Assembly: GCA_009928125.1 (NCBI GenBank)
Contig: RFVJ01000005.1
Span: 1-32,474 of the forward strand
Length of the DNA stretch: 32,474 nucleotides
Origin: Betaproteobacteria bacterium
GTDB lineage: Bacteria > Pseudomonadota > Gammaproteobacteria > Burkholderiales > Burkholderiaceae_C
Direction: 5' to 3'
Part shown: in pieces, positions 20,970-23,781 of the stretch
How the letters are laid out: each line of letters begins with the position of its first letter
How positions within the stretch are numbered: position 1 is the first letter of the stretch
Made by a program: the position numbers and the translations under genes
The notes under the pieces: model-generated
What the model was told of the DNA's origin: nothing
What the model saw: the letters and a program-made list of their open reading frames with translations, nothing else
Database searches by the model: none

Positions 20970-23036
20970 TCAGCTGTGGAACTTCATCACCAGCGGCACA
21001 ATGAGCAAGGCCACAATGTTGATGATTTTGATCAGCGGATTGATGGCGGGGCCCGCGGTGTCTTTGTAGGGGTCGCCTACGGTGTCACCCGTCACAGCCG
21101 CCTTGTGGGCTTCTGAGCCCTTGCCACCGTGGTGGCCGTCTTCGATGTATTTCTTGGCATTGTCCCAAGCACCGCCGCCAGTGCACATGGAAATGGCCAC
21201 GAACAAACCGGTGACGATGGTGCCCATCAGCAAACCACCCAAGGCTTTGGGGCCCAGCAACAAGCCAATCACGATAGGGACCACCACTGGCAACAAGCTG
21301 GGGATCACCATTTCTTTGATGGCCGCAGTGGTCAGCATGTCCACTGCGCGGCCATATTCTGGCTTGGCAGTGCCTTCCATGATGCCCTTGATTTCGCTGA
21401 ATTGGCGGCGAACTTCAACCACCACAGCGCCTGCTGCACGGCCCACGGCTTCCATGGCCATGGCACCAAACAAGTAAGGGATCAGGCCACCAATGAACAA
21501 GCCCACAATGACCAAGGGGTCGGACAAGTCAAAGCTGATGGCTTTGCCGTAGGTTTCCAACTTGTGGGTGTAGTCTGCAAACAAAACCAAGGAGGCCAAA
21601 CCGGCTGAGCCAATGGCATAGCCCTTGGTCACAGCTTTGGTAGTGTTGCCCACAGCATCCAGGGGGTCTGTGATGTCACGCACGCTGCTGGGCAGTTCGG
21701 CCATTTCGGCAATGCCGCCAGCGTTGTCAGTGATGGGGCCATAGGCGTCCAAGGCCACCACAATGCCGGCCATCGACAACATGGACATGGCGGCCACGGC
21801 AATGCCATACAAACCGGCCAAGCCATAAGACACCACAATGGCAATGCACACAAAAATCACGGGCCATGCTGTCGAGCGCATGGAGACGCCCAAGCCGGCG
21901 ATGATGTTGGTGCCGTGACCTGTGGTGGAGGCTTGCGCAATGTGTTGCACAGGGCTGTACTGCGTACCCGTGTAGAACTCAGTGATCCATACCAAGGCGG
22001 CGGTCAACACCAAGCCCACAGCGCAAGCGCCAAACAGTTTCATCTGACTGCCGCTGGCCGCAATGGCGTTGTCCGGCATGATCCACAAGGTGACAAAGTA
22101 GAACGCGATCAGGGACAGAACGCCCGCAATGGCCAAGCCCTTGTAAAGCGCAGGCATGACGTTCGTCATGCCAGGCGACGCTTTGACAAAGAAGCAGCCA
22201 ATGATGGAGGCCACGATGGACACCGCACCTAAGGCCAGGGGGTACATCACGGCGTTGCCCGGTGCGCCTGCAACCAAGAGTGAGCCCAAGACCATGGTGG
22301 CAATCAGCGTCACCGCATAGGTTTCAAACAAGTCGGCGGCCATGCCGGCGCAGTCGCCCACGTTGTCGCCCACGTTGTCTGCAATCACCGCAGGATTGCG
22401 GGGGTCATCTTCCGGAATACCGGCTTCCACTTTACCGACCAAGTCGGCGCCCACGTCAGCACCTTTGGTGAAGATGCCGCCGCCCAAACGGGCAAAGATA
22501 GAAATCAGGGACGAGCCGAAGGCAAAGCCAATGAGGGGGTTGAGGACGACTGAAAGCTTCAAATCGGGTGTGAGGTTGCCGTTGCCGGCCAGAAACCAAT
22601 AGAAGCCTGTGACGCCCAAAAGGCCCAAGCCCACCACCAGCATGCCTGTGATGGCGCCGCCTCGAAACGCAACGTCAAGGGCAGGGCCAATGCCTTTGGT
22701 GGCAGCTTGTGCGGTTCGCACATTGGCACGCACCGACACGTTCATGCCAATGAAGCCGCAAGCACCCGAAAGCACCGCACCAATGACAAAGCCAATGGCT
22801 GTCGTCATGTCGAGGAACAGCCCCATCAAGATCGCCAAAACCACGCCCACGATGGCAATGGTTTTGTACTGTCTTGCGAGGTAGGCGGCTGCACCGGCTT
22901 GAATCGCGGCTGCAATTTCTTGCATTCGGTCATTGCCGGGGTCTTGCGCCAGAATCCATCCACGAGCCCAAACGCCGTAAATCACGGCGATCAGTCCGCA
23001 AACAAGCGCCAAAATCAACGCTGAGTTGCCTGTCAT
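20970..23036 (-). CDS. hppA: Membrane-bound ion-translocating pyrophosphatase
   Basis: Many TM segments; [87 protein letters not shown]. Confidence 0.97.
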
Positions 23037-23043
23037 AAATCTA

Positions 23044-23137
23044 TCTCCTTAGTTGTTACCGCTGAGAGGAGGTGCAACGCTCGAGGAACACCTCCCGGCG
23101 TTGCTTCCTCGCTCCCACAAGGAGACGATTGGCCAAC
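23044..23137 (-). promoter_or_regulatory. Structured hppA 5' leader with a-b-c-a'-b'-c' complementary segments and anti-SD; candidate cis-regulatory RNA
   Basis: RNA (minus) GUCUCCUUGUGGGAGCGAGGAAGCAACGCCGGGAGGUGUUCCUCGAGCGUUGCACCUCCUCUCAGCGGUAACAACUAAGGAGAUAG. Plus coordinates: a 23105-23111/a' 23082-23088; b 23098-23104/b' 23074-23080; c 23089-23095/c' 23068-23074; anti-SD 23119-23125/SD 23044-23050; all perfect 7-nt complements. Confidence 0.65.
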
Positions 23138-23143
23138 AGGATC

Positions 23144-23172
23144 ATTAAAAGGGCATTGCTCTGAAATCGCAA
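23144..23172 (-). promoter_or_regulatory. Putative sigma70 promoter for hppA
   Basis: Minus strand TTGCGA (23172-23167), 17-bp spacer, TTTAAT (23149-23144). Confidence 0.5.
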
Positions 23173-23244
23173 GCCCTGTGAAAGTAAAATCGGGGTTAAT
23201 CCTAAGGTTCTTAGATTTACATCAACTCTTTATATTTTTTGAAA

Positions 23245-23781
23245 ATGTCCCTAGACAACGTTACCCCTGGCAGCAAAGTACCTGAGCAATTCAACGTCAT
23301 CATCGAAATTCCGATGAATGCCGATCCTGTGAAATACGAAGTGGACAAGGCCACTGGCGCTATTTTTGTAGACCGTTTCATGAGCACGGCCATGCATTAC
23401 CCCACCAACTACGGCTACGTGCCCAAAACCATCAGCGGTGACGGTGACCCTGTGGATGTGCTGGTCATCACGCCTGTGCCTTTGATTCCGGGTGTGGTGG
23501 TGCCTTGCCGCCCCATTGGTATTTTGAAAATGCAAGACGAAGCCGGCGAAGACGGCAAAGTGCTGGCTGTGCCCACCGACAAAATTTTGTCCATCTACAC
23601 ACAGTGGCAAAAGCCAGAAGACTTGAACCCCCTGCGTTTGAAAACCATTGCCCACTTCTTTGAGCACTACAAAGATTTGGAAGTCGGCAAATGGGTGAAG
23701 ATTTTGGGTTGGGAAGGCCCAGAAGCTGCCAAGAAAGAAATCTTGGATGGCATCGCCAATTATCAAAAAGCCAAGGCCTGA
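23245..23781 (+). CDS. ppa: Soluble inorganic pyrophosphatase (family I)
   Basis: [66 protein letters not shown] 23245. Confidence 0.97.

Follow-up and report, generated by a model that had tools for sequence, protein, structure and literature searches.

A conserved structured RNA leader of hppA in Comamonadaceae as a candidate translational switch

INTRODUCTION

Does the 5' leader of hppA, in which short complementary segments follow one another in interleaved order, act as a cis-regulatory RNA, and how might it do so? The question arose at a locus within a 32,474-nt stretch of betaproteobacterial DNA (contig RFVJ01000005.1), referred to here as the window. The leader region is bounded by the hppA start codon and a TTGCGA-17-TTTAAT promoter, and the soluble pyrophosphatase gene ppa is the divergent neighbor of hppA. 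A preliminary description of the letters alone had proposed three helices, a/a', b/b', and c/c', together with pairing of the Shine-Dalgarno (SD) sequence to an upstream complement, and had read the leader as a riboswitch or translational switch. Here we examine which of these features are conserved and what kind of regulation they suggest. Positions of the individual features are given in Table 1.

TABLE 1 Features of the hppA leader region, in window coordinates
Feature	Position	Strand	Basis or remark
hppA	20970..23036	-	membrane-bound ion-translocating pyrophosphatase, 688 aa; NCBIfam NF001951 and TIGR01104
hppA Shine-Dalgarno AAGGAGA	23044..23050	-	sequence; SD-like site in 205/217 homologs
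c', 3' arm of covarying helix	23068..23075	-	pair counts and tree-based null; 7-nt complement CACCTCC at 23074-23068
b' GCGUUGC (DNA, GCGTTGC)	23074..23080	-	in or at edge of c/c' loop; GCGU near-invariant, next bases vary
a' TTCCTCG	23082..23088	-	
c, 5' arm of covarying helix	23088..23095	-	six of eight c/c' pairs changed on both sides; 7-nt complement GGAGGTG at 23095-23089
b GCAACGC	23098..23104	-	overlaps core block 2; near-invariant
Core block 2, AGGAAGCAACG	23099..23109	-	exact in 88/88 covariance-model-found loci
a CGAGGAA	23105..23111	-	
P1 hairpin, UCGUCUCCUUGUGGGAGCGA	23109..23128	-	length varies in homologs; base pairs covary
Anti-Shine-Dalgarno UCUCCUU	23119..23125	-	within P1 5' arm
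Core block 1, GUUGGCCAAU	23128..23137	-	exact in 88/88 covariance-model-found loci
Putative -10 box TTTAAT	23144..23149	-	6 nt upstream of element
Putative -35 box TTGCGA	23167..23172	-	sequence; in homologs, -35-like site less uniform than -10

RESULTS

Interleaved complements and the predicted transcript. The exact 7-nt complements are present in the order a-b-c-a'-b'-c' within a span of 44 nt, as first noticed. Segments a, b, and c were said to abut; the dinucleotide CG separates b from c, and b' and c' overlap at base 23074. When the leader was dinucleotide shuffled 20,000 times, an ordered, non-nested triple of exact 7-bp complements never arose, whereas 16% of the shuffles had at least one exact 7-bp complement. 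The folding energy of the leader lies 3.1 standard deviations below that of dinucleotide shuffles. The SD and its complement UCUCCUU were found where the preliminary description had placed them, and the promoter boxes and their 17-nt spacing are as it described. Aligned on GTTGG, 203 homologs show a TAnnnT-like box (T87 A76 n A84 n T90, in percent) at -12 to -7. In most homologs, 6 nt lie between this -10 box and GUUGG, a spacing that should put the mRNA 5' end at or next to the first base of the core; transcription in the window is predicted to start at 23137, the first base of the element. The resulting leader of about 101 nt agrees with the earlier estimate of approximately 100 nt.

The element is confined to hppA in one family. 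A first covariance model gave matches in 92 of the 301 genomes of the GTDB family to which the window belongs. A second model, built on 58 diverse leaders, gave matches in 122 of these genomes, representing 64 of 141 genera; hppA itself is present in 230 of the 301. The gene lies directly downstream on the same strand at 211 of 216 loci, and the remaining five retain only 23 to 86 nt of sequence, too short to show it. All 30 hppA loci from the same genus carry the leader. Neither core block was found at twenty hppA genes from family genomes lacking a model match, and searches of the order and class outside the established clade returned weak matches only (E = 0.006 to 0.08), none of them near hppA. 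Among the matches listed by the pattern scan, the named genomes with the element are nearly all Comamonadaceae, with genera such as Limnohabitans, Hydrogenophaga, Polaromonas, Ramlibacter, Variovorax, Acidovorax, and Curvibacter.

A contig labeled as belonging to a Gemmatimonadetes metagenome-assembled genome (JAGWYS010000078.1; locus L172) also carries the element before an hppA that is 72% identical to that of the window over the available part; this occurrence may reflect mis-binning or transfer. An origin as a repeated or mobile element was rejected, as the window's own genome holds no second copy and no plasmid match was found. The motif GTTGGCCAATC has 10 sites in that genome, against 0 for a reversed control; the element does not recur in any of the eight contexts inspected, which appear coding-like by eye.

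An invariant core surrounds a variable hairpin. The most conserved part of the element is held by GUUGGCCAAU and P1, which lie outside the features singled out at first. Both core blocks are letter-perfect in the loci of Table 1, and exactness was counted on loci found by covariance model (n = 88), which removes the bias of an exact-pattern scan. P1 sits between the two blocks and covaries at its base, and in 95% of homologs it has a lower folding energy than mononucleotide shuffles; the gap between the blocks varies widely in length with pairing kept.

Long letter-perfect blocks suit binding by a protein or an RNA as well as they suit an aptamer, and the core may therefore be a site for a protein (pyrophosphatase-related autoregulation, or a CsrA-like factor) or for a trans-acting small RNA; the leader would then work through this factor and not through a metabolite. 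CsrA sites contain GGA motifs, and both the core (AGGAAG) and the SD have such a motif. Restriction to one gene in one family would also fit this reading. However, the length and invariance of the blocks exceed those of a typical CsrA site, and we consider a protein or small RNA site somewhat unlikely.

Helix c/c' covaries. The strongest evidence for RNA structure comes from c/c'. In alignment A3, 90.8% of its cells are paired, and 81 are changed on both sides; the corresponding counts are 26 for shuffles and no more than 27 for slid arms. Under a tree-based null, 85% are paired, against a mean of 47% and a maximum of 74.5%. The arms have been replaced wholesale with pairing kept, for example by GGAGACA/UGUCUCC (L048), GAAACACAA/UUGUGUUUC (L046), and GGUGGUG/CACCAC (L060). 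When 6,441 column pairs were scanned agnostically, ranks 1 and 2 were both taken by c/c' pairs (E = 0.23 and 1.2); under this harsh null, they are not individually significant, and the significance of the helix thus rests on the helix-level tests.

The other two proposed helices fared differently. The a/a' complement is a local coincidence, with 44% of cells paired and no compensatory change. Pairing of b with b' is maintained (94% paired) but is so nearly invariant that it is uninformative on covariation, and none was seen. In a diverged genus (L270 and L271), GCGU of b' is absent and a helix after the core is still present. In 202 of 219 homologs, b' falls within the loop of the best helix or at the loop edge, loop lengths being approximate because they include other helices. 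The linker between b' and c' is almost nil in most members and 10 to 38 nt in some, and c/c' still forms in leaders with tens of bases between the two. Three further pairings were rejected: GAGG with CCUC of c', seen in the minimum free energy (MFE) fold of the window, is lost in other genera, where c' differs; an apical GGAG/CUCC hairpin shows one-sided changes only and is not kept by eye in the wider set; and pairing of the 5' GUUGGC with GC(nn)YAAC before the SD shows only a one-sided change. Weak antisense-strand scores were also obtained with the first covariance model (L022, L025, L049, and others) because the element helices are near-palindromic.

These patterns bear on whether the conservation could reside in DNA, as an operator or initially transcribed signal, or in an upstream reading frame, rather than in RNA structure. 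At the predicted transcription start lies GTTGGCCAAT, with the palindrome TTGGCCAA, as might be expected of a DNA element, and ATG or GTG follows shortly after GAGGAA in some genus members, as might be expected of a reading frame. Compensation at many positions of c/c' and maintained pairing across an inter-block gap of widely varying length argue against a DNA element; the start codon in question is missing from the leader in the window, and the frame is shifted by indels of one base in c and c' (L022 and L023). We regard both possibilities as highly improbable, and an upstream reading frame was rejected as a candidate because its frame is not conserved. As a side observation, many genus members (L024, L029, L018, and others), although not the window, have ATG or GTG a few bases past GAGGAAGCAACGC, which opens a short overlapping frame or extends hppA in frame; this frame is likewise not conserved.

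Same-strand position upstream of hppA in 64 genera, sequence conservation, and compensatory change in c/c' and at the base of P1 bear out the proposal of a conserved, structured, cis-acting hppA leader.

The SD is predicted to pair with P1. Across the predicted ensembles of 198 homologs, the mean probability of pairing between the SD and the P1 5' arm is 0.53, compared with 0.18 when P1 is shuffled and 0.12 when it is reverse complemented. Because the homologs are related, Wilcoxon p-values for this comparison overstate its significance. Nor is the test independent, since both partners, the SD and the P1 CUCC, are conserved by descent. The P1 5' arm is the main predicted SD partner in 130 of the 198 homologs, which extends the proposed pairing of UCUCC with the SD to most homologs; roughly one in three makes no use of it, and in 11 of the 198 the SD is largely unpaired. 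The earlier suggestion that c' is an alternative SD partner does not hold in general, as c' changes in sequence along with c. In Variovorax-type leaders, the P1 anti-SD pairing is absent and GUCUCC after c' is predicted to pair with the SD. The anti-SD thus appears to have moved between lineages, lying in the P1 arm or next to c'.

Helix b/b' forms in most of the predicted ensembles (0.82), and c/c' is rare (0.11). Helix c/c' covaries and yet is rare in nested ensembles, which points to a pseudoknot joining b/b' and c/c' or to a factor or cotranscriptional folding that selects c/c'. Nested folds that keep P1 and c/c' but leave the SD unpaired are less stable than the MFE fold by about 12 kcal/mol, a large cost for a ligand unless a pseudoknot or cotranscriptional folding helps. 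The leaders inspected have no U run after c', which makes transcription termination less likely.

This energy gap, together with SD pairing predicted in most homologs without ligand and a core that begins at the predicted 5' end, would also fit a leader whose structure fixes mRNA stability, 5'-end protection, or a low translation rate, with no switching. Stability alone hardly explains 21 invariant core bases, however, and the maintenance of c/c' despite its rarity in nested folds suggests a second state or a pseudoknot. A static leader therefore seems improbable to us.

DISCUSSION

Our results suggest that the element is best read as a translational switch, probably riboswitch-like. The invariant sensor core, GUUGGCCAA/P1/GGAAGCAACGC, would start at the 5' end of the mRNA. 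When P1 is open, its 5' arm would pair with the SD, and HppA translation would be low. A signal, most simply a small ligand, would stabilize the core with P1 closed, releasing the SD so that HppA is made. The c/c' helix, with the conserved GCGU of b' in the loop facing b, would be part of the switching or of a tertiary structure. The switching, its ON/OFF direction, and ligand sensing are inferred; a ligand is favored as the signal because invariant bases flank a hairpin, as in an aptamer internal loop. Metabolite riboswitches are not usually confined to one gene in one family, and this narrow range counts against the switch. On balance, we give about an even chance to the reading that the hppA leader of Comamonadaceae is a cis-regulatory RNA controlling translation initiation by the switch proposed. 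More tentatively, and with the balance tilting against it, the leader may be a new riboswitch class in which pyrophosphate, phosphate, Mg2+, K+/Na+, H+, or a related energy-state signal is sensed directly through the GUUGGCCAA/GGAAGCAACGC core of a pseudoknotted, SD-occluding switch that sets HppA synthesis.

How does this leader compare with known RNAs? At gathering level, Rfam 15 matched only two RNAs in the window, an ilvH leader (RF02993, 32195-32262, plus strand) and a bacterial small SRP RNA (RF00169, 3337-3433, minus strand), and not the hppA leader. No family matched positions 22900-23400 up to E = 5 or seven homologous loci, mostly diverged ones, up to E = 2, so the impression that the leader belongs to no recognized class withstood the covariance-model search. 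Fluoride (crcB), SAH, and preQ1 riboswitches are small leader aptamers, some of them pseudoknotted; the hppA leader has no Rfam match to any of these at E ≤ 5. Like SD-occluding translational riboswitches, the element is a single-gene 5' leader with an invariant core around a variable hairpin, a predicted anti-SD/SD pairing, and mutually incompatible helices. Unlike them, its core matches no Rfam family, and it serves one gene in one family only.

The literature searched yielded no hppA RNA motif, no RNA regulation of hppA, and no riboswitch for pyrophosphate. Genome-wide intergenic searches have reported candidate structured RNAs (PMC8632094, PMC11109978) that resemble the hppA leader in being conserved and structured with an unknown effector. 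As far as the main texts of these two papers go, neither mentions Comamonadaceae or the genera searched for, and their few mentions of pyrophosphate concern thiamin pyrophosphate or HMP-PP. The element is apparently an undescribed cis-regulatory RNA family, riboswitch-like by architecture and orphan by function.

A near-invariant orphan leader of one gene in at least 64 genera is a clean system for a ligand search, and from the identity of that gene the signal to look for is pyrophosphate or ion status. The leader also offers a candidate SD switch in which the anti-SD has apparently been relocated between lineages.

A separate conserved block resembling GGATTAACCCCGATTTTACTTTCAC lies at approximately 23180-23215, on the ppa side and upstream of the hppA promoter, and may be the ppa promoter or the ppa 5' end. 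Related forms (GGG..AACCC..GATTTTA) occur at hppA loci without the RNA element.
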